37,125 nucleotides of DNA, taken from assembly GCA_903828645.1 (NCBI GenBank), contig CAIKNA010000080.1, forward strand, positions 1-37,125, given 5' to 3'. Positions within the stretch are counted from its first letter, which is position 1. Each line of letters starts with the position of its first letter. Shown here piece by piece: positions 4,127 to 26,290 of this stretch. The notes under the pieces are model-generated. The model did no database searches and was not told where the DNA came from. It saw nothing but the letters and a program-made list of their open reading frames with translations. The translations under genes and the position numbers were made by a program. This DNA is from an uncultured Bacteroidales bacterium (GTDB taxonomy: Bacteria > Bacteroidota > Bacteroidia > Bacteroidales > FEN-979).

Positions 4127-5509
4127 ATGAAGGTCCATTTTATTGCCATTGGCGGCAGCGCCATGCACAATCTTGCCATTGCCCTCTATCATAAGGGTTA
4201 TTCCATAACCGGATCTGATGACGAAATTTTCGAACCTTCAAAAAGCAGGCTCGCTGCGTGCAATATCCTTCCGGCAACCCAGGGATGGGATGCCTCACGC
4301 ATCACGCCCGCGATTGATGCCGTGATCCTGGGCATGCATGCAAAGTCTGACAACCCGGAACTGCTGAGAGCGACTGAGCTGGGAATCAAAATTTTCTCCT
4401 ACCCTGAATATCTCTACGAACAATCGAAAGATAAAAAAAGGGTTGTGATCGGAGGCAGTCACGGCAAGACCACCATTACTGCCATGATCCTGCACGTGCT
4501 GCAACAGTTATCGGTTAACTGCGATTACATGGTTGGTGCGCAGCTTGAAGGTTTTGACGTGATGGTAAGGCTTACGGAGGAAGCCCCGTTGATGATCATC
4601 GAGGGAGATGAATATCTCACCTCTCCCATCGACCTTCGCCCGAAATTCCATCTCTACAAACCGGATATTGCACTGCTTAGCGGCATCGCATGGGACCATA
4701 TCAACGTTTTCCCAACCTTCGAAAATTATGCAGATCAGTTTATTATCTTCATCAACCAGATTTCAAAAGGAGGAACGTTGATTTACTGCAATGAAGACGA
4801 GGAACTTAAACGTATATGCCAGGTTTCAAGGAACGACATCAACATCATTCCTTATGGGGCTCTGCCTCACGAAATCAGCAACGGGGTGACTCGAATCCAG
4901 GTTAATAATGCGTGGGTGCCACTTCAGATTTTTGGCAGGCACAACCTGATGAACCTGAACGGTGCGCGGCTGGTATGCCGGCAACTTGGTATCGGGGATG
5001 CAGAATTCTATGAAGCAATCCAATCATTCAGGGGGGCGTCGAAGCGGCTGGAACTGATCGCAAAAAAAGAGAGCAGGGTTGTCTATAAAGATTTCGCCCA
5101 TGCCCCTTCAAAGGTCGAGGCTACGCTGAAAGCCGTAAAGGAACAATTTCCGGGAAGAAGAGTGGTGGCCTGCCTCGAATTACACACATACAGCAGCCTT
5201 AACAAGGAATTCCTGGGTCATTACAGGGGCACACTCGATCCGGCAGATGCTGCATTCGTATATTTCAATTCTCACGCACTGCAGGTGAAGCGATTGCCGG
5301 AAATCACTGAATTACAAGTCAAAGAAGGATTTTGTAAGGCCGGGATGGAGGTATTTACCGATTCTGCGAAACTGATTAAACGACTGTTCCGGGAAGAGGA
5401 TCCCGGAACAGTACTCCTGATGATGAGTTCAGGAAATTATGATGGTATTGACCTTAAAGATTTCTCGTTGCAATGGGTAACCCTGAAACCAGGATTAGCT
5501 GTTCATTGA
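4127..5509 (+). CDS. mpl: Mur ligase, probable UDP-MurNAc:tripeptide ligase (murein recycling)
   Basis: 460 residues with the three-domain Mur ligase layout. The N-terminal nucleotide-binding domain begins [15 protein letters not shown]. The ATP loop GGSHGKTT is at 109-116, EGDEY at 159-163, DHINVFPTF near 191-199, GRHNLMN at 270-276, FRGASKRLE at 301-309 and DFAHAPSKV at 322-330. FRG..KR.E and DFAH.P in the C-terminal half, with the short HAKSDNPE segment at 71-78, fit Mpl, which joins a recycled tripeptide to UDP-N-acetylmuramate, better than MurC. MurC usually sits in the dcw cluster, and no dcw genes are nearby. The stop overlaps the convergent rho stop region by 15 bases. Family certain; Mpl versus another UDP-MurNAc ligase is likely but not proven. 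Confidence 0.82.
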
Positions 5510-7372
5510 GATCAGGAACTCTTCATTTGAGTTGGTGAATTTCATCCTTTCTCTAAGAAACTCCATCGCTTCCAAAGGATTCATGTCGGCCAGGTGGTTC
5601 CTCAGGATCCAGATACGCTGCAAAGCATCCTTGTCAAGGAGCAGGTCATCGCGGCGGGTGCTGGAGGAAACAATATCGATGGCCGGATAAATTCGTTTGT
5701 TGGACAGTTTGCGGTCAAGTTGCAACTCCATGTTGCCGGTACCCTTGAATTCTTCAAAGATGACCTCGTCCATTTTGGAGCCTGTCTCAATCAAAGCTGT
5801 TGCAATGATGGTGAGCGATCCTCCGTTTTCGATCTGGCGAGCTGCGCCAAAAAATCTTTTGGGTTTCTGGAGGGCATTTGCCTCCACCCCGCCCGACAAT
5901 ACCTTTCCCGAAGCCGGGGCAACGGTGTTGTAAGCTCGTGCGAGACGGGTGATGGAGTCGAGCAGGATCACGACATCATGACCGCATTCGACCAGCCGTT
6001 TTGCCTTTTCCAGGATGATGTTTGAGATGCGGGTATGGCGTTCGGCAGGTTCATCAAAAGTGGATGAGATGACCTCTGCCTTCACGCTGCGTTGCATGTC
6101 GGTAACCTCCTCCGGCCGTTCATCGATCAACAGGATGATCATGTAAACATCAGGGTGATTTGCTGCGATGGCATTTGCGATCTCTTTAAGAAGGACGGTC
6201 TTCCCTGTTTTTGGCTGTGCCACGATCAATCCGCGCTGGCCGAAACCGATGGGTGCAAACATATCGATCACACGGGTCGACATGCTTTCATTCTTATGAC
6301 CTGTGAGTTTGAATTTCTTCATCGGGAAGAGCGGGGTGAGGTAATCGAACGGGATACGGTCACGCACTTCCTCAGGTTTACGGCCATTGATCAGGTCGAC
6401 TTTGATCAGCGGGAAATATTTTTCACCCTCTTTTGGCGGGCGGATGGTTCCACGAACGGTATCCCCGGTTTTAAGACCGAATAATTTGATCTGCGATTGT
6501 GAAACATAAATATCGTCGGGGGAGTTCAGGTAATTGTAATCGGAAGAACGGAGAAACCCATAACCGTCGGTCATAATTTCAAGTACTCCTTCGCTTACAA
6601 TGATTCCTTCGAATTCAAAAGTGTATTCTTCCCGGTGGCGCTCGGGGAATTTACGGGGAAACTCGCGTTGTTTGCGTTCTTCAACAACAGGTTGTGCGGA
6701 GGCATCACTCACAAGTTCTGCCTCAATGGCTTCAAGTTCAGCCGGCTCGATTACCCCGTCAGGTTTCTGGATCACATCAACCGGATCGATTGCAACGTAA
6801 GGCTTATCGCTCGTTTCTTCAAAATCAAAGCGAACTTCAGGTGTGTCAAGAAGTTCAGGCAGAGTCATGTGGACCAATGGTTCGGCCGGTGATTTTTCAT
6901 GATATGGGCGGAAGGGTTTGTTTTCCCTTGGATTTTTTTGCTCGCGGGGATTACGCTGCTCACGCGGAGGAAGCGGTTCCCTTGGAGGACGCTGGTCCCT
7001 GGGCTGGCGTTGTTCACGGGGGAGCCGTTGCTCAGTATTTGGCTGTTCCTTTTTGTCGGTTGCGACTGCGGGAGTAACCGTTTTGGGTTCCCTTGGCACA
7101 TTCACTGCATTTGGGTCTCTGGGTTCCCGGGGCTCCCTGGGTTCGTGTGGTTTGGCATCCTGATCTTTGCGCGGACGACCCCGGAAAGGTTTTACCAATT
7201 CCTGTTTTTCCTGGTCTAAAATTTCAGGAGTGGGATTGAGCGCCTGATGATCCAGTATCTTATAAATGAGATCCTGTTTTTCAAGTTTATCAACTTTGGG
7301 GATGTTGAATTGTTTTGCAATTACTCTGATCTCCGACAGCTCTTTGCCGTCGAGGGAAATAATGTCATACAT
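5495..7372 (-). CDS. rho: Transcription termination factor Rho with long Arg/Pro/Glu-rich insert
   Basis: 625 residues, about 200 more than E. coli Rho. The N-terminal Rho_N helical domain covers about 1-45. Residues 60-165 form a low-complexity, probably disordered insert of REPREPR and PREQR repeats. The RNA-binding cold-shock domain runs about 258-345 ([25 protein letters not shown]). The ATPase has its P-loop AQPKTGKT at 385-392, [10 protein letters not shown] at 417-426, Walker B VVILLD at 467-472 and the secondary-channel loop [12 protein letters not shown] near 544-555. All catalytic motifs are intact, so this is the functional hexameric RNA translocase that ends transcripts. Large charged inserts in this position are common in Bacteroidota Rho and may help RNA binding. 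The gene is single, with its own promoter and a 113-nt leader. Confidence 0.97.
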
Positions 7373-7591: not shown

Positions 7592-8068
7592 ATGTTACAG
7601 CGAATTCAAACTATATACCTTGCCATTGTGGCCATTGCATGCGTGATGATTTTCTTCTTCCCGCTGGCAAATTACTACAATGAGATCCAGGGGAACTACA
7701 AATTATTCATTTACGGTATCAGGTGCATGGATCCCGAGCCCAAAGTTTTATTCCCAAATTATTTCACGATCCCACTGATTTTTCTTGTGGTTGCCTCATT
7801 TATATTCACCGTCTCCACGATTTTCCTTTTTAAAAACCGGCCGCTTCAGATCCGTCTTTGTGCCTTTAACATGCTGACCAATATTGTACTCATCATGGTG
7901 ATCTTTTTCTTCTATGCCACCAGGGTTAAAACCATGACTCAAATTGAACCCGAATACAATTACACAGGGATGGTTCTTCCGCTGGTGTCCCTGTTATTTT
8001 TAATCTTTTCCAACCAGGCGATCAGGAAGGACGAGGCGTTGGTGAGGGGGGCGGACAGGCTGAGGTAA
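7592..8068 (+). CDS. DUF4293 family membrane protein
   Basis: 158 residues, almost wholly hydrophobic, with four predicted transmembrane helices: about 8-26, 58-80, 90-110 and 125-142. The N-terminus MLQRIQTIYLAIVAI is characteristic of the DUF4293 family, small four-helix membrane proteins of Bacteroidota. In this phylum they often lie beside rho, as here, where rho is divergent. No function is known. The tail (EALVRGADRLR) is polar and positively charged, which suggests a cytoplasmic C-terminus. The TAA stop at 8066-8068 is followed directly by a six-unit TTTACGA array. Confidence 0.85.
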   Translation: MLQRIQTIYLAIVAIACVMIFFFPLANYYNEIQGNYKLFIYGIRCMDPEPKVLFPNYFTIPLIFLVVASFIFTVSTIFLFKNRPLQIRLCAFNMLTNIVLIMVIFFFYATRVKTMTQIEPEYNYTGMVLPLVSLLFLIFSNQAIRKDEALVRGADRLR

Positions 8069-8110
8069 TTTACGATTTACGATTTACGATTTACGATTTA
8101 CGATTTACGA
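8069..8110 (+). repeat. Heptamer array (TTTACGA)x6
   Basis: Six perfect tandem copies of TTTACGA begin at the base after the DUF4293 stop codon and end 18 bp before the stop of the convergent phosphoesterase gene. The array is followed by TTTTGG, as is the array at 22647. A G-rich tract (8041-8065) lies immediately upstream. Confidence 0.97.
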
Positions 8111-8128
8111 TTTTGGCTGGCAACAGGT

Positions 8129-8620: not shown

Positions 8621-8651
8621 GGGGCAAAGGTACGATTTGTGAAGGAACGTT

Positions 8652-8700
8652 GACAAACGACAAGTGACAAGTGACAAGTGACAATTGAGAATTGAGATGG
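8652..8700 (+). repeat. Heptamer array, GACAAGT type
   Basis: Seven consecutive 7-bp units: GACAAAC, GACAAGT three times, GACAATT, GAGAATT, GAGATGG. The last units are degenerate. The array lies in the divergent region between the phosphoesterase start (8620) and the rmuC promoter, and is followed by a G-rich tract (to about 8710). The sequence differs from TTTACGA but the period is the same. Confidence 0.9.
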
Positions 8701-14762: not shown

Positions 14763-14776
14763 AAGGGGATTTTGGA

Positions 14777-14804
14777 TTTACGATTTACGATTTACGATTT
14801 ACGA
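14777..14804 (+). repeat. Heptamer array (TTTACGA)x4
   Basis: Four perfect copies 15 bp upstream of the argF start codon, which is on the minus strand. The candidate argF -7 box lies beyond it (14862-14869), so the array should be transcribed in the argF leader, where it reads TCGTAAA. Confidence 0.95.
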
Positions 14805-14861
14805 TTTATTGTGCTTAGAGTAAGTATACCAGGATAACTGAATAATTTTAAATTTCGGATG

Positions 14862-16205: not shown

Positions 16206-16209
16206 ACCA

Positions 16210-16230
16210 TTTACGATTTACGATTTTTGA
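16210..16230 (+). repeat. Short heptamer array (TTTACGA)x2 plus one degenerate unit
   Basis: Two perfect TTTACGA units and TTTTTGA. With a few flanking bases it makes up the whole 26-bp spacer between the channel start (16205) and the lipid-kinase stop (16232-16234). Confidence 0.85.
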
Positions 16231-17122: not shown

Positions 17123-17139
17123 TGTTGAAAAATCAAAAA

Positions 17140-17181
17140 TCGTAAATCGTAAATCGTAAATCGTAAATTGTTAATCGTCAA
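17140..17181 (+). repeat. Heptamer array (TCGTAAA)x4 plus two degenerate units
   Basis: Four perfect TCGTAAA units (17140-17167), then TTGTTAA and TCGTCAA. The degenerate end overlaps the last codons and the stop (17171-17173) of the LTA-synthase-like gene, which therefore ends ...DD-stop in repeat sequence. Confidence 0.92.
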
Positions 17182-19872: not shown

Positions 19873-21093
19873 ATGGGAGCAATTGCTACAACAGGTAACA
19901 AAGGCAAAGGGGTTCGCTCCGACTGTTCCGTTACCCTCGAACTTACCGACCAGGGAGGAATTCAACTGCAGGTAACCTCCAAGGTGGCCGTGATGTACGG
20001 CGACACGATCCGGAAAGAGACCCTTGAAATCCTGAATTTCTTCGGGATAAAAAATGCCAGGATTACCCTTGAAGATTCCGGTTCCTTATCATTGGTGCTT
20101 GCCGCACGCCTTGAAGCCGCCATTAAAAAACTCATCCCCGGCGAAAGGAACTGGCTGCCGGCCATGCTCGAAGAGAACAGGTATACCACTGCAAAGGACA
20201 GGAACCGCTTTTCACGGCTCTATCTTCCGGGAAATTCACCCGGACTGATGATCAACGCAGGCATCCACAAGCCCGATGGCATCATCCTCGATCTCGAAGA
20301 CGCCGTTGCACCGGATAAAAAAGATGAGGCCAGGTTCCTTGTACGGAATGCCCTGTGCGGCCTCGATTTTTATGGTGCCGAACGGATGGTCCGCATCAAC
20401 CAGGGAGAACGCGGCATCGAAGACCTGGAGTACATCATTCCTTATAATGTCAACCTGGTCCTGCTTCCCAAATGCGAGAAACCTGAACAGCTGCAGGCTG
20501 TCAATGACCGGATCAGGAAAATCCAGCAGAAACACAACCAGTCAAACCCCGTGTGGATCATGCCGATCATCGAAAGCGCCCTGGGTGTTATTAATGCTTA
20601 CCCCATTGCCAGTTGTTCCGGAAACATCGTAGCCCTTGCCATCGGTCTCGAAGATTATACTGCCGACCTGGGTACTAAACGCACGCCGGAGGGCACAGAA
20701 TCTTTCTTTGCCCGCAGCATGATAGTCAATGCCGCGCGTGCCGCAGGAATTCAGCCCATTGATTCGGTATTCTCCGATGTGGGCGACATGGAAGGGTTGC
20801 GCCAGAATGTACTGCGTTCAAAAGCCCTCGGGTTCGACGGCATGGGGTGCATCCATCCACGGCAGATCGTGGTGATCCATGAAACATTTGCGCCTGCTCC
20901 CGATGAAATAGAAAAAGCCAGGAAGATCGTTTTCGCTTTTTACAAGGCCCAGGAGCAGGGACTCGGCGTGGTGGCCCTCGGCACCAAAATGATCGATCCC
21001 CCTGTTGTGAAAAGAGCACTTAACACGATCAATCTCGCACTGAAAATGAACAAACTTGATGAAAACTGGAGGGAATCGTATGAACAAATTTGA
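19873..21093 (+). CDS. citDE: Fused citrate lyase acyl carrier and beta subunit (CitD-CitE)
   Basis: 406 residues holding two citrate lyase subunits that are normally separate. Residues 1-90 match CitD: KGVRSDCSVTLEL, with S16 at the usual site of the phosphoribosyl-dephospho-CoA arm, then GDTIRKETLEILNFFGI and LEDSGSLSLVLAARLEAAI. Residues 112-400 match CitE of the HpcH/HpaI family: RLYLPGNSPGLMINAGI, DLEDAV (140-145), LLPKCEKPEQL, MPIIESALGV and ALGLED-like AIGLEDYTADLG. CitE cleaves citryl-thioester to acetyl-thioester and oxaloacetate. The fusion is continuous, with no stop or frameshift between domains. citF follows with a 14-base overlap. The accessory genes citC, citX and citG are not in the window. 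Confidence 0.85.
   Translation: MGAIATTGNKGKGVRSDCSVTLELTDQGGIQLQVTSKVAVMYGDTIRKETLEILNFFGIKNARITLEDSGSLSLVLAARLEAAIKKLIPGERNWLPAMLEENRYTTAKDRNRFSRLYLPGNSPGLMINAGIHKPDGIILDLEDAVAPDKKDEARFLVRNALCGLDFYGAERMVRINQGERGIEDLEYIIPYNVNLVLLPKCEKPEQLQAVNDRIRKIQQKHNQSNPVWIMPIIESALGVINAYPIASCSGNIVALAIGLEDYTADLGTKRTPEGTESFFARSMIVNAARAAGIQPIDSVFSDVGDMEGLRQNVLRSKALGFDGMGCIHPRQIVVIHETFAPAPDEIEKARKIVFAFYKAQEQGLGVVALGTKMIDPPVVKRALNTINLALKMNKLDENWRESYEQI
21068..21073 (+). promoter_or_regulatory. Shine-Dalgarno-like site deciding the citF start
   Basis: GGAGGG lies 6 bp before the ATG at 21080, inside the end of citDE. It supports 21080 over the upstream in-frame ATG at 21056, and is one of the few such sites in this window. 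Confidence 0.55.
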
Positions 21094-22642
21094 CAAACTC
21101 GTTACCAACGCAGCCGGACGAATCGTGCCCACTATAATCAACGGGAAACCTGCCATTCCATATATGGGCGTTGGAAAATACAAACCCGAAGGCTTCCGGG
21201 CCGCCCCGAAAATAGCCACCTGTGCAGACTATCCCGCCGATGGGAATAAAGTCGTTACAGACCTGAAGGAAGCCCTCTTAAAGGCCGGTTTGCGCGATGG
21301 CATCACAATTTCAACACATCATCATTTCCGCAACGGAGACCTGGTGGCCACCCGGATCTTTGATATCGCCAATGAACTGGGTATTAAAGACCTCGTATGG
21401 TATCCCTCTGCCTCGTTCCCATGTCATGAACCCATGACAAAATACCTCGAAGACGGGACGATCAACCGAATCGAAGGCAGCATGAATGGCGCCCTGGGCA
21501 GGTTCACTTCCGAAGGAAAGATGAAAGGCCTGGGTGTCTTGCGTTCGCATGGAGGCCGTTACCAGGCTGTGCAGGACGGTGAGGTACATATTGATATCGC
21601 CGTGATCGCCGCACCTACAGCCGATTCCTTTGGCGATGCAAACGGTGTGAACGGTCCTGCGGCCTGCGGTCCGCTCGGTTTCGCCCTGGCCGATTCCCAA
21701 TATGCCGACAGGGTGATCGTAGTAACGGACAACCTCGTTCCTTTTCCCTGCCTGCCCTGGCAGATCAATGGTAATTACGTGGATTACGTGGTGGTGATGG
21801 ACCAGATCGGGATCCCTGAAAAGATCGTCAGCGGCACTACCGAGATCACGAAAAGCCCCGACCGGTTGCTCCTGGCCGAATGGTCTGCGAAATTCTGCGA
21901 TGAGGCCGGGCTGATTTACGATGGTTTCTCTTTCCAGGCCGGGGCCGGCGGTACTGCGCTCTCTATCGGGATCTATTTCTCGGAGATCCTGCGTGAACGG
22001 AAGTGGAAAGCACGGTTTGCAAGGGGCGGTAGCAACAAATACCTCGTACAGATGCTGGAGGAGGGACTCGTGGAATACATTCTCGACGGCCAGACATTCG
22101 ACCTGCAGGGGGTGCGCTCCATGCGTGAAAACCCTCACCATACCTGGACAAGCCCGTTCACAAGTTACAACTACCACGGAAAGGGCAACTTCTCCTCCAT
22201 GGTGGACATCGTGATTCTTGGCGCTACCGAGGTGGATGTGAATTTCAACGCCAATGTTGTGACCCATTCCGACGGTTATCTTTTACATGGAATCGGCGGA
22301 TGGCAAAACACCCTGTTCGGTAAATGCGTGATCCTGCCCATTCCCCTCTTCCGCGACCGCATGCCGGTTATCCGCGATCAGGTAACCACCATCTGCGGCC
22401 CGGGCGAACTGATCGACGTGATCGTCACCGAACGCGGCATTGCCATCAACCCTCTGCGCACCGACCTGATCGAGAAAATGAAGAACTCATCCCTCCCGAT
22501 CAAAACCATTGAAGAACTCAAAGCCGAAGGGGAGAAAATCTGCGGCATCCCGGCCAAGCCGAAATTCACCGACGAAGTGGTAGCTGTGGTGAAATGGGTG
22601 GATGGAACCGTGCTGGATTCGGTGTGGAGAGTGAGGAGCTAG
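21080..22642 (+). CDS. citF: Citrate lyase alpha subunit (citrate CoA/ACP transferase)
   Basis: 520 residues, close to the usual CitF length. It shows GRIVPTIINGKPAIPY near the start, THHHFRNGD near 77-85, a Gly/Ala-rich FSFQAGAGGTALSIG, and GATEVDVNFNANVVTHSDG with GGWQN in the C-terminal half. These are CoA-transferase-fold elements of CitF, which swaps the acetyl group on the carrier arm for citrate. With the fused CitD-CitE it forms a two-gene citrate lyase cleaving citrate to acetate and oxaloacetate. That suits fermentation of citrate or reverse flux of TCA intermediates; a malic enzyme lies 11 kb downstream. The chosen ATG overlaps citDE by 14 bases. A six-unit TTTACGA array begins 5 bp after the stop. 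Confidence 0.9.
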   Translation: MNKFDKLVTNAAGRIVPTIINGKPAIPYMGVGKYKPEGFRAAPKIATCADYPADGNKVVTDLKEALLKAGLRDGITISTHHHFRNGDLVATRIFDIANELGIKDLVWYPSASFPCHEPMTKYLEDGTINRIEGSMNGALGRFTSEGKMKGLGVLRSHGGRYQAVQDGEVHIDIAVIAAPTADSFGDANGVNGPAACGPLGFALADSQYADRVIVVTDNLVPFPCLPWQINGNYVDYVVVMDQIGIPEKIVSGTTEITKSPDRLLLAEWSAKFCDEAGLIYDGFSFQAGAGGTALSIGIYFSEILRERKWKARFARGGSNKYLVQMLEEGLVEYILDGQTFDLQGVRSMRENPHHTWTSPFTSYNYHGKGNFSSMVDIVILGATEVDVNFNANVVTHSDGYLLHGIGGWQNTLFGKCVILPIPLFRDRMPVIRDQVTTICGPGELIDVIVTERGIAINPLRTDLIEKMKNSSLPIKTIEELKAEGEKICGIPAKPKFTDEVVAVVKWVDGTVLDSVWRVRS

Positions 22643-22646
22643 CGGA

Positions 22647-22688
22647 TTTACGATTTACGATTTACGATTTACGATTTACGATTTACGA
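22647..22688 (+). repeat. Heptamer array (TTTACGA)x6, left arm
   Basis: Six perfect TTTACGA copies begin 5 bp after the citF stop. They form an inverted pair with the six TCGTAAA units at 23115-23156. The stop codon of the four-helix-bundle gene (22669-22671) lies inside this array. Confidence 0.97.
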
Positions 22689-23055
22689 TTTTGGGATTGT
22701 TGGCATTGTGTTTTTTTACTGTTTTGATACTTGCAACAATAATTGACAGGATCTCATTTGCTTCCAATTTCAGAGGACTTAATTTTTGGGGGCTAAAGAT
22801 TCCGGCTTCTTCCAGTAGTTCCAGCCATAAAATCGTTTCGTCAGCCTCTTCTTCAACTATTTTAAGCTTGTTTATGAAATCTCTTGTTGATTTTGCACTG
22901 CAACAAGCTGAATAATTGGCGCATATTGAAGTTGCCGATCTGAGTAGCTGGTTTCCTATCACCTTTGATGTTTTGGTTTCCGGCAACATCTCGACCATCC
23001 GGATGACCCTTAAGACAAAGAGTTTCATTCGATGTTTTAACATTTCCTTGTTCAT
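22669..23055 (-). CDS. Four-helix-bundle protein, S23 rRNA-intervening-sequence family
   Basis: 128 residues, all predicted helical. LLRSATSICANYSACCSA (37-54), then DFINKLKIVEEEADETILWLELL (59-81) match the S23 (TIGR02436) pattern: Q..RSA.SI.AN, then DF...L.IA..E..E...WL..L. Homologues are encoded in 23S rRNA intervening sequences of Leptospira, and the related Avd proteins of diversity-generating retroelements bind nucleic acid. No reverse transcriptase, template repeat or rRNA is nearby, so this is a free-standing copy of unknown role. Its last seven residues (KIVNRKS) and stop are translated from the heptamer array. The protein is basic at both ends, as expected for a nucleic-acid binder. 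Confidence 0.88.
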   Translation of the reverse strand: MNKEMLKHRMKLFVLRVIRMVEMLPETKTSKVIGNQLLRSATSICANYSACCSAKSTRDFINKLKIVEEEADETILWLELLEEAGIFSPQKLSPLKLEANEILSIIVASIKTVKKHNANNPKIVNRKS

Positions 23056-23114
23056 GTTTTTTGATACTTAATCCACCAATCCAATAAAAAGTACTACGTT
23101 TGTTAATAAAAAAA

Positions 23115-23156
23115 TCGTAAATTGTAAATCGTAAATCGTAAATCGTAAATCGTAAA
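23115..23156 (+). repeat. Heptamer array (TCGTAAA)x6, right arm
   Basis: Six units, the second being TTGTAAA. It ends 5 bp before the GTG start codon of recQ. It is the inverted partner of the array at 22647-22688. Confidence 0.96.
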
Positions 23157-23161
23157 TTATT

Positions 23162-25069
23162 GTGACTCTCCATCAACTCCTCCTGAAACACTGGGGTTTC
23201 TCCTCATTCCGCCCATTGCAGGAGGAGATTATCCAGTCGGTGCTTGATGGCAAGGATACACTCGCCCTGCTGCCAACCGGGGGAGGGAAATCATTGTGTT
23301 TCCAGGTGCCGGCGCTGGCGAGGGAGGGCATTTGCCTGGTTGTTTCCCCGCTCATTGCGCTGATGAAAGACCAGGTGGACAATCTGAAAAAGCGGGGCAT
23401 TCCTGCCGCTGCCATTCATTCGGGCATGCATCCCGACGAGATCAGGATCGTTCTCGACAATTGCTGTTACGGGAAAACCAAGCTCCTCTATGTCTCACCC
23501 GAACGGCTCACCACCGACAAGATGCGCGAAGCGCTTAAACGAATGAAAGTCAACCTGCTGGCGGTTGATGAGGCACATTGTGTTTCTCAATGGGGGTATG
23601 ATTTCCGGCCGCCCTACCTGCAGATCGCCGGCATCAGGCACCTGATTCCCGACACTCCTGTGCTGGCTCTTACTGCAACAGCAACCCCGAATGTTGTCAA
23701 AGATATTCAGCGAAGGCTGGAATTCAGAAAGGAGCTTGTTTTTCAGAAAAGTTTTGAGCGCAAGAACCTAACCTACCTGGTACTGAAGGAGGAGGACAAA
23801 TTGAAGAGGCTGGTTAAGATCGTCAGCAAGGTAAAGGGCACCGGTATCGTGTATGTGCGCAACCGTCGTCATACCAAGGAAATCGCGGAATACCTTCAGA
23901 AAAACAATATCAGTGCCGACTTTTATCATGCCGGTCTTGACCCCGCCACCCGCGACAGGCGGCAATCAGCCTGGATCAATGAAGAGAAACGGATCATTGT
24001 TTCAACCAATGCATTTGGCATGGGCATTGACAAGCCCAATGTACGGGTGGTGGTCCACCTCGATCTGCCCGACAGCCTCGAAGCCTATTTCCAGGAAGCG
24101 GGCCGCGCCGGCCGGGACGAAAAGAGAGCTTATGCTGTATTGCTCTACGAAACCGCTGATGTGCTCGACTCACGCCACAACCTGGTGCTCTCCTACCCCG
24201 AATTGAAGACCATACGTGATGTTTACCAGGCCCTTGGGAATTATTTCCAGTTGCCCGTTGGCATGGGCAAAGACCTGCCATTCGATTTCGACCTTGCCGC
24301 ATTTGCCGAACAATACCAATTTCAGCCGGTCATCGTTTTCAACTGTCTCAAATTTCTTGAAAAAGAGGGATTTGTCATGCTCACCGAAGGGATTCATCAT
24401 CCGTCGAAAGTATTCATCAAGGCGAAGAAAGAGGAACTTTACCGTTTCCAGGTGGAGCATGAAGCTTTTGACCACTTCATCAAAACCATGCTGAGATCGT
24501 ACAGTGGAATCCTCTCCGATTTCATCATCTTCCATGAATCTGAACTTGCCCGCAGAAGCAACCTCAGCCTTGAAAAGACGGTAAGCAACCTGGTGCACCT
24601 CGCGAAACTGCAGATCCTTGATTATCTTCCTCAAACCGATAAACCACAGGTCATATACATGCAGGAAAGACTCGATACCCGCGACCTGACGATTTCTCCT
24701 GAAAATTACAAGGACCGGCGGCATGATGCGGAACAAAGACTTGAAAACATTATCGGGTACGCCGGGTCCACCAACAAATGCCGCAGCCAGGCGCTGCTGG
24801 CCTATTTCGGGGAATGCAACACAAAACGATGCGGCAAATGCGATGTGTGCATCGAACGCAACAAACTCAGCCTGAACGAAATGGAATTCGACAACATTGT
24901 CGACCTGATTAAACCCTTGCTGAAAGCCAGGTCGTATTCCCTGGAGGAGCTGACCAACGCAGCTGACCCGGTGAACGAAGACAAGGTGATACGGGCTATT
25001 CAATGGCTGGTGGACAATGAGAAGATCAGCGTGGATGGGGAGAGGAAGTTCAGGTGGGTAGACAAATGA
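23162..25069 (+). CDS. recQ: ATP-dependent DNA helicase RecQ
   Basis: 635 residues. A GTG start is used, as no ATG exists before the conserved WGFSSFRPLQEEII (11-24). Helicase motifs: TGGGKS (39-44), DEAH (136-139), TATATP, and motif VI QEAGRAGRDE. The zinc site is C540, C557, C560 and C563, followed by a winged-helix RQC region. It ends without an HRDC domain, near 635, as in many Bacteroidota RecQ paralogues. RecQ unwinds recombination intermediates 3' to 5'. The start codon lies 5 bp after the right heptamer array, and the last codons plus the TGA lie in the first unit of the GACAAAT array, so both ends abut arrays. Confidence 0.95.
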   Translation: MTLHQLLLKHWGFSSFRPLQEEIIQSVLDGKDTLALLPTGGGKSLCFQVPALAREGICLVVSPLIALMKDQVDNLKKRGIPAAAIHSGMHPDEIRIVLDNCCYGKTKLLYVSPERLTTDKMREALKRMKVNLLAVDEAHCVSQWGYDFRPPYLQIAGIRHLIPDTPVLALTATATPNVVKDIQRRLEFRKELVFQKSFERKNLTYLVLKEEDKLKRLVKIVSKVKGTGIVYVRNRRHTKEIAEYLQKNNISADFYHAGLDPATRDRRQSAWINEEKRIIVSTNAFGMGIDKPNVRVVVHLDLPDSLEAYFQEAGRAGRDEKRAYAVLLYETADVLDSRHNLVLSYPELKTIRDVYQALGNYFQLPVGMGKDLPFDFDLAAFAEQYQFQPVIVFNCLKFLEKEGFVMLTEGIHHPSKVFIKAKKEELYRFQVEHEAFDHFIKTMLRSYSGILSDFIIFHESELARRSNLSLEKTVSNLVHLAKLQILDYLPQTDKPQVIYMQERLDTRDLTISPENYKDRRHDAEQRLENIIGYAGSTNKCRSQALLAYFGECNTKRCGKCDVCIERNKLSLNEMEFDNIVDLIKPLLKARSYSLEELTNAADPVNEDKVIRAIQWLVDNEKISVDGERKFRWVDK

Positions 25070-25115
25070 CAATTGTCAATTGACAAATGACAAATGACAA
25101 AATACAAATACAAAT
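25061..25115 (+). repeat. Heptamer array, GACAAAT type
   Basis: Seven 7-bp units, GACAAAT, GACAATT, GTCAATT, GACAAAT twice, GACAAAA, TACAAAT, then a 6-bp ACAAAT. It begins in the last codons of recQ and ends at the ATGATG of the methyltransferase gene. Confidence 0.9.
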
Positions 25116-25908
25116 GATGAGTTACGATGATCTGCCGCTATGGTCGGCTCCTTTCGGGCTGACTTTGCTGGACACAATCAGGATGAGAACGCACATCAAT
25201 GTTCTTGACATTGGCAGCGGCAGTGGTTTCCCGATGCTGGAACTGGCTGGGCGAATGGGCAGGAGCTGCATGGTTTACGGCCTTGACCCATCGGAGGATT
25301 CCATCCGGATGATCACGGCAAAAAAGGAGCTCAGGGGAATTGAATTTGCCAAAATCGTCAGGGGAGTCGCGGAGGAGATCCCTTTTCCGGATGAATATTT
25401 CGGGCTTATCGTTTCAAATAACGGGCTGAACAATGTAACGGATCAGGCTGCTGCACTTGCCGAATGTTACCGTGTTGCTGATGAAGATGCCCAGTTGGTA
25501 CTCACCATGAACCTGCCTCATACCATGATCGAGTTTTACGATGTTTTCGAAGAGACGCTCCGGGAACTTGACCTGAATGATGAAATTGCCCGAATGCATG
25601 AACATATCATTGAGAAACGCAAACCGGTGGAATACCTGAAAGAGATGATCCTGGCCAGCGGTTTCGCCATCCATACGATCAACGTGGATGGATTTAAACT
25701 GAAATACAGCGACGGATCTGCGTTTCTCAACCACCCTTTCATCCGGCAGGCCTTCATGGGACCCTGGAAGGCAATATTGCCTGCAGAAATGACCGGCCCG
25801 GTTTTCAACACCATTGAACAACGCCTCAACCAGGTTGCCTCCGACAAGGGCGAACTTTCCATTTCCGTTCCTTATGTATGCTTTGACTGTTTAAAACAAA
25901 AAAAATGA
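25114..25908 (+). CDS. Class I SAM-dependent methyltransferase
   Basis: 264 residues from ATG 25114 (25117 is equally possible). Motif I is VLDIGSGSGFP (30-40), followed by GLDPSEDSIRM (the acidic residue that binds the ribose), VRGVAEEIPFPDEYFGLIVSNNGLNN (motifs II-III) and LKEMILASGFAIHTINVDGF. The fold is that of the UbiE/Methyltransf_11 group; the substrate is not evident. An upstream in-frame ATG at 25087 would add MTNDKIQIQ, read from the heptamer array, and is disfavoured. Cys and Lys residues at the end (YVCFDCLKQKK) are unusual. The stop overlaps the next gene's ATG (ATGA), so the two are translationally coupled. Confidence 0.85.
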   Translation: MMSYDDLPLWSAPFGLTLLDTIRMRTHINVLDIGSGSGFPMLELAGRMGRSCMVYGLDPSEDSIRMITAKKELRGIEFAKIVRGVAEEIPFPDEYFGLIVSNNGLNNVTDQAAALAECYRVADEDAQLVLTMNLPHTMIEFYDVFEETLRELDLNDEIARMHEHIIEKRKPVEYLKEMILASGFAIHTINVDGFKLKYSDGSAFLNHPFIRQAFMGPWKAILPAEMTGPVFNTIEQRLNQVASDKGELSISVPYVCFDCLKQKK

Positions 25909-26225
25909 TCCCGATGATCTCCCCGCTTGTTTTAGTCTTTATCATGCTCCTGCCTGCACTGCAGGAAAAGCCTGTTGACAAAAATTGCCAGTGTAAAGGT
26001 TTCAAACTCTACGGAAGGGTAAAGGTTGTGACCGACTTCCCCGATTTGAAGGTAAAAATCGTCGAAAACTTTCCTGATCTAAAAGTGCAGGTTGTTGAAA
26101 ATTTCCCGGATCAATGCGGAAAATGGACCTTTGTCGACAACTTCCCCGACTTCAAAATCAAGTTCGTGACCGATTTCCCCGATCTGAAAATCAAATTCGT
26201 GGAAAACTTCCCCGGAAAACCCTAA
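25905..26225 (+). CDS. Small exported FPD-repeat protein, septoil-knot-like
   Basis: 106 residues. A signal peptide covers about 1-20 (hydrophobic MISPLVLVFIMLLPALQ). The mature part has C28, C30 and C71 and six repeats with core V-(T/E/D)-(N/D)-F-P-D: FPD at 45, 56, 67, 80 and 91, then FPG at 102. Spacing is 11, 11, 13, 11 and 11, with alternating short strands (KVKIV, KIKFV) between. The arrangement resembles what I recall of the 7(1) septoil knot domain family, small exported proteins predicted to form a seven-crossing knot; I cannot check this here. Function unknown. It overlaps the methyltransferase stop by 4 bases, and a heptamer array begins 2 bp after its own stop. Confidence 0.8.
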   Translation: MIPMISPLVLVFIMLLPALQEKPVDKNCQCKGFKLYGRVKVVTDFPDLKVKIVENFPDLKVQVVENFPDQCGKWTFVDNFPDFKIKFVTDFPDLKIKFVENFPGKP

Positions 26226-26227
26226 AA

Positions 26228-26290
26228 TCGTAAATCGTCAATCGTAAATCGTAAATCGTAAATCGTAAATCGTAAATCGTCAATCGTAAT
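26228..26290 (+). repeat. Heptamer array (TCGTAAA)x9
   Basis: Nine units: TCGTAAA with two TCGTCAA variants (units 2 and 8) and a last unit TCGTAAT. It fills the spacer from 2 bp after one stop codon into the ATG of the glycosylase gene (26289-26291). On the opposite strand a G-rich tract (complement of 26292-26305) precedes it. Confidence 0.96.

Follow-up and report, generated by a model that had tools for sequence, protein, structure and literature searches.

An S23 gene between inverted heptamer arrays

The window, by which we mean the whole stretch of DNA analysed here (37,125 nucleotides), covers positions 1 to 37,125 of contig CAIKNA010000080.1 in assembly GCA_903828645.1, which derives from an uncultured Bacteroidales bacterium (FEN-979). 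On its reverse strand, at 22669–23055, lies a gene of 128 aa belonging to the S23 family of four-helix-bundle proteins (23S rRNA-IVP), with genes for CitF (21056–22642) and a RecQ-family helicase (23162–25069) as neighbours. The gene matched PF05635 at 62.6 bits (cut-off 33.8) and TIGR02436 at 88 bits, and the protein matched PDB 2rld with an E-value of 5e-15, together with weak matches to two hypothetical-protein models. Profile searches found neither a recognisable catalytic domain nor a transposase domain in the S23 protein, and searches of PHROGs and PADLOC gave no match.

The gene is framed by two short tandem arrays. On the side of its 3′ end is a forward-strand array of 6.7 units (GATTTAC/TTTACGA, 22645–22691, 100% matches), and on the side of its 5′ end a reverse-strand array of 6.6 units (AAATCGT/TCGTAAA, 23112–23157, 94% matches), in which one of the six TCGTAAA units reads TTGTAAA. 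Aligned as inverted arms, the two span 22646–22692 and 23111–23157, each 47 bp long, with one mismatch. The preliminary description, which counted six units on each side (TTTACGA to the left, TCGTAAA to the right) of a lone S23-family gene in the citF–recQ gap, was thus accurate apart from this single variant unit, and the 3′ end of the S23 ORF does fall within the left array, as it had also noted. Between the arms we found the S23 gene alone and no transposase gene. A promoter-like motif, ACTTTTT-N12-GATTAA, was placed by eye upstream of the gene (23067–23094, reverse strand). Searches of 22300–23500 gave no rRNA match at E-values up to 1, and the one Rfam match there was at chance level.

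The TTTACGA unit recurs elsewhere in the window. Dispersed solo arrays were located on the forward strand at 8068–8113 and 14775–14808 and a further dispersed array on the reverse strand at 26225–26280, while a short forward array at 16209–16226 forms an inverted pair with a reverse-strand array at 17137–17168 around a lipid-kinase gene. Arrays of other units (TGACAAG, GACAAAT) were observed at 8651–8697 and 25061–25117, and no S23 gene of matching type was present among the own-genome matches listed.

Heptamer arrays in the source genome

To describe dispersal, we counted overlapping matches to three consecutive units, with the copies of the cassette itself (the S23 gene plus its arms) included. 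The source genome had 338 matches to TTTACGAx3 (179 + 159) and none to the same pattern read backwards. A sample of 432 kb of this genome contained 46 arrays of period 7, compared with 0–1 for periods 4, 5, 6, 8, and 10, eight for period 9, and five for period 13 (period 14 being a multiple of 7). Shuffles yielded no arrays at periods 6–9. The arrays are thus not a chance feature. The stretches taken from other genomes held 93 arrays of period 7 and 42 of period 8. Most TTTACGA arrays of the 432-kb sample were intergenic (27 of 33), while tiled ORFs covered 90% of the sample.

The dispersed arrays of this sample followed no clear rule with respect to gene orientation. Inverted doublets with a spacer were few in the source genome, and their spacers were not alike. 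Because heptamer arrays are this common, an array alone says nothing about the gene beside it; the inverted pair does. One inverted pair of TTTACGA arrays in another stretch (L139, 5181–5704) stood in the opposite order, with TCGTAAA first, and enclosed an ORF (5259–5636) that had no Pfam match.

Inverted repeats frame S23 genes in relatives and distant phyla

To quantify the framing, we took for each gene the highest-scoring ungapped inverted repeat in a region reaching from 60 bp inside its ends to 250 bp outside them, and called arms above a score of 12, which is the 99th percentile for 447 random intervals of 350 bp. We analyzed 47 S23 loci, five from the source genome and 42 from relatives picked roughly down the match ranking; genomes from other families and two rows at contig ends were excluded. 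Arms above the cut-off were found at 41 of the 47 genes (median score 22, against 8 for random intervals), compared with 13 of 701 non-S23 ORFs (Fisher's exact test, p about 2e-49) and one of 217 small ORFs (p about 2e-40). Among the six S23 genes without such arms, one lay at a contig end. Period-7 arrays flanked 12 of the 47 genes on both sides, compared with 3 of 3753 random intervals, and a further comparison for arrays on one side gave 11 of 47 against 236 of 3753. Framing by inverted repeats, in many cases short tandem arrays, is thus far commoner for S23 genes than for other genes. This is the enrichment over other genes that the preliminary description had proposed as a check, and it also appeared in the more distant set described below.

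The reverse question was addressed by collecting inverted pairs with loops of 150–900 bp from 1.11 Mb of sequence. Of 41 such pairs, 32 enclosed an S23 gene and nine did not, a proportion biased by the sampling since 40 of the 61 stretches had been chosen for S23 and a further five, from the source genome, each hold an S23 gene.

Farther from the source genome the signal was weaker. In a sample of 118 genomes from the phylum PF05635 was present in 90, and 14 of the best 30 loci there exceeded the cut-off. We also assembled a set of named genomes from several phyla, with cultivable carriers such as Roseivirga and Runella among them, in which S23 proteins were 43–67% identical to that of the window; after removal of five of its 80 loci for too short a flank, 49 of 75 were above the cut-off, compared with 5 of 413 control intervals from the same loci. 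The proportions ranged from 15 of 15 in Chloroflexi to 11 of 23 in Flavobacteria.

Arm units tend to track the S23 lineage

The arms did not share one sequence. Across S23 lineages their units included TTTACGA, TGACAAG, TGACCAA, AATGACGAATATGCG, AAATGCA, GAATATCGAATATTG, TGGTGAAC, and others, with two of the lineages characterized by a TTTACGA type and a GAATGACG type. We compared S23 protein identity with the 5-mer similarity of the arms for the 58 of 77 loci with arm scores of at least 15. The two were correlated (r = 0.40, 1576 pairs), a value that none of 2000 permutations reached, and the correlation was 0.06 when the arms were reversed. With relatives only and neighbour-sharing pairs removed, the correlation was 0.34 (41 cassettes, 728 pairs; 0 of 5000 permutations) and −0.03 with reversed arms. 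In this comparison only four non-syntenic pairs reached 60% S23 identity, and their arm similarity was modest (0.08–0.19).

Orientation showed the same tendency. Upstream of S23 in the 75 named loci, the motif TKACGA occurred 173 times forward and six times in reverse, and downstream 16 times forward and 103 times in reverse, against a background of 11 forward and 8 in reverse expected from the surroundings; only 19 of the 75 loci had at least two correctly oriented units on both sides. In these comparisons the arm unit and its orientation tend to go with the S23 protein lineage, at different sites and in different genera, and a single family of units recurs with one S23 subfamily across phyla. 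Such lineage coupling suggests that the array may be recognised by the S23 protein.

Related S23 genes were also found in non-shared contexts, namely L140/L123 (64% identity, with AAATGCA-like arms common to both), L082/L074 (66%), and L078/L076 (88%). Arms below the cut-off were observed at three loci with S23 proteins 79–88% alike in non-shared contexts, L078 and L111 (G018) and L076 (G016), the last of which is at a contig end.

The resident unit is scattered through several chromosomes

Using the same counts, we compared the genus, represented by 19 genomes. The five with TTTACGA-type arms at citF–recQ all contained 51–338 matches to TTTACGAx3, while among the 14 others two reached 49 or more (G003 and G008) and 12 had five or fewer (p = 0.0018). 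No arm type could be assigned at citF–recQ for three of these 14 (G003, G004, and G015), and without them one of 11 reached that level. The two exceptions, with 58 matches in G008 and 49 in G003, had no S23 gene of this type among the matches listed; the G003 assembly is 81% complete and its recQ was not found. G020 had 10 TTTACGA matches.

For GTGACAA the agreement was looser. This unit was matched as expected in G014 (48), G002 (21), and G013 (5), and also in G008 (46), G018 (44), and G000 (8); for G008 and G018 no S23 gene of that type was among the matches listed. The unit of the G007 cassette lay outside these counts. The cassette unit of G013 had 120 matches in G013, 30 in G019, and three or fewer in each of the other 39 genomes, and within that type the S23 genes of G013 (L082) and G019 (L074) were the sole pair at 60% or more among the 47 analysed. 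Copies of the unit near the G013 cassette were known before the count, which therefore was an open forecast for the other genomes only.

The dispersed copies in G013 had a regular structure. In 20 stretches we identified 18 hairpins, each consisting of an array, a spacer, and the reversed array, and 12 of the 20 stretches held at least one; 17 of the stretches had been chosen for array hits, many of them for paired hits. In 15 of the 18 hairpins the spacer resembled one consensus of about 44 bases (GGGGTGCT ... AGTAGCGC), itself derived from these copies in G013, more closely than did 99% of shuffled spacers. Such a hairpin also flanks the G013 S23 cassette on either side.

Outside the phylum, 39 matches were found in the Chloroflexi genome G158, 79 in G160 (about nine arrays besides its cassette), and seven in G159, where they fell in three places, one being the cassette itself. 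These three genomes had at least three pure TTTACGA units in the arms listed, while the other 12 of the 15 genomes in that set, with mixed arms, had 0–12 matches. The arms of a G005 cassette that is also present in G010 both matched dozens more places in G010 (at least 87 rows, with 40 of 124 candidates scored). Several genomes thus have the unit of their resident cassette scattered chromosome-wide, although there are exceptions. Since the unit follows the resident S23 type in these genomes, the scattered solo arrays are related to the S23 gene, as had been supposed for the window.

A second framed family and a shared upstream motif

A second gene family, unrelated to S23, was framed in a similar way. 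GxxExxY genes (TIGR04256; PF13366, PD-(D/E)XK superfamily) were detected in 25 of 41 relatives. After three of 30 loci were set aside (L195, L209, and L218), and with two gene ends set by hand, 16 of 27 had inverted arms, compared with 1 of 54 control intervals. The arm units were often ACACGAAG-, CACAGAG-, or CACAAAGG-like. The GxxExxY protein had no match in PHROGs and weak Cas4-like matches in PADLOC.

S23 and GxxExxY genes also share a promoter-like upstream motif, [AG]C[CT]TTT-N9-18-GATTAA (ACCTTTT-N-GATTAA), which was present at 22 of 46 S23 genes (one short-flank locus being left out of the count), 11 of 27 GxxExxY genes, and 11 of 817 control ORFs. A stricter form of the motif was found at 18, 6, and 3 of these, respectively. 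The motif was derived from these same S23 genes, which leaves the GxxExxY count as the one partly independent test. At the citF–recQ place of G008, a GxxExxY/PDDEXK_3 gene (L092) was observed with AACCACAAAGGGCACAATGG-type repeats and an S23-like upstream sequence.

History of the cassette sites

We then compared the citF–recQ site across the genus, in which recQ was found in 17 of the 19 genomes. An S23 gene lay directly upstream of recQ at nine of these 17 loci, with inverted arms that differed between species but matched each other within each cassette. At the remaining loci we found a short gap (G005, G009, and G010), other sequence (G017), a short solo array (G016), a GxxExxY gene framed by another repeat (G008), a different gene (G001), and a truncated recQ (G015). 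Presence at the same place in nine of 17 loci indicates that the cassette is old at this site. The mobile element proposed in the preliminary description is not supported in the sense of a 510-bp unit moving freely there, and the arms, which change from species to species at one site, are not fixed ends of one sequence. Arms that differ and yet match can be read as concerted change of both arms or, in another reading, as replacement of whole cassettes. In phylogenetic trees the S23 genes were partly grouped by arm type (support 82–92 for G002/G014/G007/G013), and both the S23 and the recQ trees had many weak branches. In the gap after recQ, compared in 13 genomes, the presence and the unit of arrays varied between species.

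Several cassettes keep their orthologous position in different species or genera. G005 has a second S23 cassette that was missing in G010, where the flanks are 95–97.5% identical. In G021, which belongs to a different genus, the same second cassette occupies the same place (neighbouring genes 73–75% and S23 62% identical). Because the outgroup has the cassette there, the empty site of G010 is most simply a loss that left two heptamer units behind. The flanks at this site overlap by seven bases, CAATGGA in G010, corresponding to CAATTGA and CAATTTA in G005. No target-site duplication was established at the cassettes. Empty sites, which the preliminary description had expected if the unit moves, do exist (G016 at citF–recQ, and G010), but the one clean example from a close pair concerns this other cassette and is most simply a loss, and no gain of a cassette or an array was directly seen.

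Exchange between lineages is suggested for G006 and G008, where the core of a cassette shares 93–100% DNA identity, exceeding the 76–78% of the flanks, as would follow from a recent transfer. The S23 genes of three close pairs had dN/dS values of about 0.07, 0.29, and 0.36 and are under purifying selection.

Candidate explanations

The reading that we prefer, at about even probability, is that S23 serves as cognate protein to a REPIN-like system of repeats that has no RAYT transposase. Together with its two inverted heptamer arrays, the S23 gene would form one unit of a gene-plus-repeat partnership, resembling REP/RAYT with a different protein. The protein may bind its cognate array, either as RNA or as single-stranded DNA folded back on itself, and could help host enzymes of repair or replication to copy or convert the array hairpins; a nuclease supplied in trans, such as GxxExxY, is an alternative source of the activity. 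Copying or conversion of this kind would spread the arrays and keep the arms matched. A broader proposal, to which we give somewhat less than an even chance, is that S23 and, separately, GxxExxY are the hidden agents of many short tandem repeat families in bacteria. Each protein lineage would recognise its own unit, build and homogenise inverted arrays around the gene that encodes it, and seed arrays or hairpins through the chromosome with no transposase, and the S23 ORFs of rRNA intervening sequences (IVSs) would be copies that landed in rRNA.

A different reading, unlikely in our view though it has to be taken seriously, places the selection on RNA: the arms would be maintained as the stem of a transcript hairpin with the S23 coding region in its loop, the S23 protein would bind this stem, and the scattered arrays would be stems in other transcripts. 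An IVS of Coxiella with an S23 ORF is likewise bordered by complementary sequences (PMC4990558), and the window transcript is predicted to fold at −142.9 kcal/mol (z −7.2) with its arms paired. In the named set, arm mismatches of the G.U type outnumbered those of the A.C type by 72 to 39 (p = 0.002; 52 of 71 loci scored) and by 27 to 10 when counted by cassette (p = 0.008), a test from which three loci on contigs already counted were left out, while these remain in the 75-locus counts. The relatives did not show this excess (65 against 77, p = 0.36; 41 of 47 scored), the dispersed arrays of the 432-kb sample lack a clear orientation to genes, and a stem alone leaves both the coupling of unit to protein lineage and the scatter of arrays unexplained.

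That the arrays are merely a target is quite unlikely. They would then spread by themselves, through slippage and some other process, and S23 cassettes would insert into them, the arms being a split target. Arrays are indeed common without S23, the empty sites of G016 (citF–recQ) and G010 hold short arrays, the flank overlap at the G010 site amounts to one heptamer, and the arrays after recQ vary between species. Splitting an array should, however, leave direct rather than inverted arms unless the target was a hairpin, the orientation of the unit relative to the gene is strongly biased, and outgroup synteny makes the G010 array most simply a footprint of loss. An ordinary small transposable element, with the arrays as its ends and its own protein as the mover, would account for the related S23 genes whose contexts are not shared (L140/L123, L082/L074, and L078/L076), for relatives at 43–67% identity in several phyla, and for the exchange between G006 and G008. 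We nevertheless regard it as distinctly improbable: the S23 protein lacks a transposase domain, several cassettes keep to orthologous sites in different species or genera, and the arm sequence varies with no target-site duplication established. It is hardly credible that arrays and S23 genes simply gather as passengers in loose intergenic DNA. The intergenic position of 27 of the 33 sampled TTTACGA arrays would fit, but other small ORFs were framed in just one of 217 cases, and unit and orientation track the S23 protein.

A reverse transcriptase was considered as a partner and rejected, as several genomes with armed cassettes had no PF00078 match. Of 41 genomes searched with PF00078, 14 were without a match, including G010, G011, G013, and G020; the source genome had one match (E-value 4e-7). 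Since none was matched in G013 and G011, both of which have armed cassettes, a reverse transcriptase is seemingly not needed.

Comparison with known systems

Several bacterial groups are known to carry short tandem heptamer arrays, for which there is no agreed agent. Intergenic heptamer arrays in many copies include the TAACTGA repeats of Beggiatoaceae, Cyanobacteria, and Bacteroidetes and the prokaryotic satellites; transfer or transposition has been suspected with no known agent (PMC4679880; PMC6749651), and an unknown transposition mechanism has been inferred for satellites of some prokaryotes (PMC6749651). S23 proteins, for their part, have been described as having no known function (PMC4990558). 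The window arrays differ from the TAACTGA repeats in their unit, TTTACGA, and in the link to a cognate gene that is added here; the term S23 occurs zero times in the main text of PMC4679880. The coupling gives the arrays and the widespread S23 proteins each a testable partner, and it means that a candidate binding site can be read from the flanks of an S23 gene itself. A search of titles and abstract openings in the open-access literature, a body that excludes most subscription papers, found no S23–array link in print.

Among systems with a related protein, Avd of the diversity-generating retroelements is an S23 relative that binds nucleic acid. These retroelements need a reverse transcriptase, unlike the S23 units of G013, a genome with many dispersed arrays and no PF00078 match. 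Insertion sequences and MITEs differ in that the S23 element has no transposase gene. Its arms vary between orthologous copies. The IVSs of 23S rRNA are closer, as there too complementary sequences border an element with an S23-family ORF (PMC4990558), but the window unit lies in the citF–recQ gap rather than in an rRNA gene, and its arms are short tandem arrays that recur genome-wide.

The closest parallel is REPIN/RAYT, in which repeats beside a resident protein gene recur extragenically, often as inverted hairpin pairs, and each RAYT has its own repeat group (PMC3116915). Similarly, the S23 gene is flanked by its own repeat type, and the same repeat is dispersed in high copy outside genes, with exceptions in G003, G008, G018, and most of the 15 genomes counted outside the phylum. 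Inverted doublets with a spacer, a REPIN feature, were clear in G013, where stretches had been chosen for pairs, and few in the source genome. The differences lie in the protein, a four-helix bundle in place of the Y1 (HUH) transposase beside the repeats, and in the repeats, whose units of about 7–9 bases are tandem and singly non-palindromic (e.g. TTTACGA), vary widely in sequence between lineages, and differ between species in the arms of orthologous cassettes. The framing of S23 genes by inverted arrays is real and general in the samples tested and, in our judgement against the open-access literature, unlike any described kind: a defining feature sets it apart from both REPIN/RAYT and the rRNA IVSs, while a likeness to them in action would still hold.
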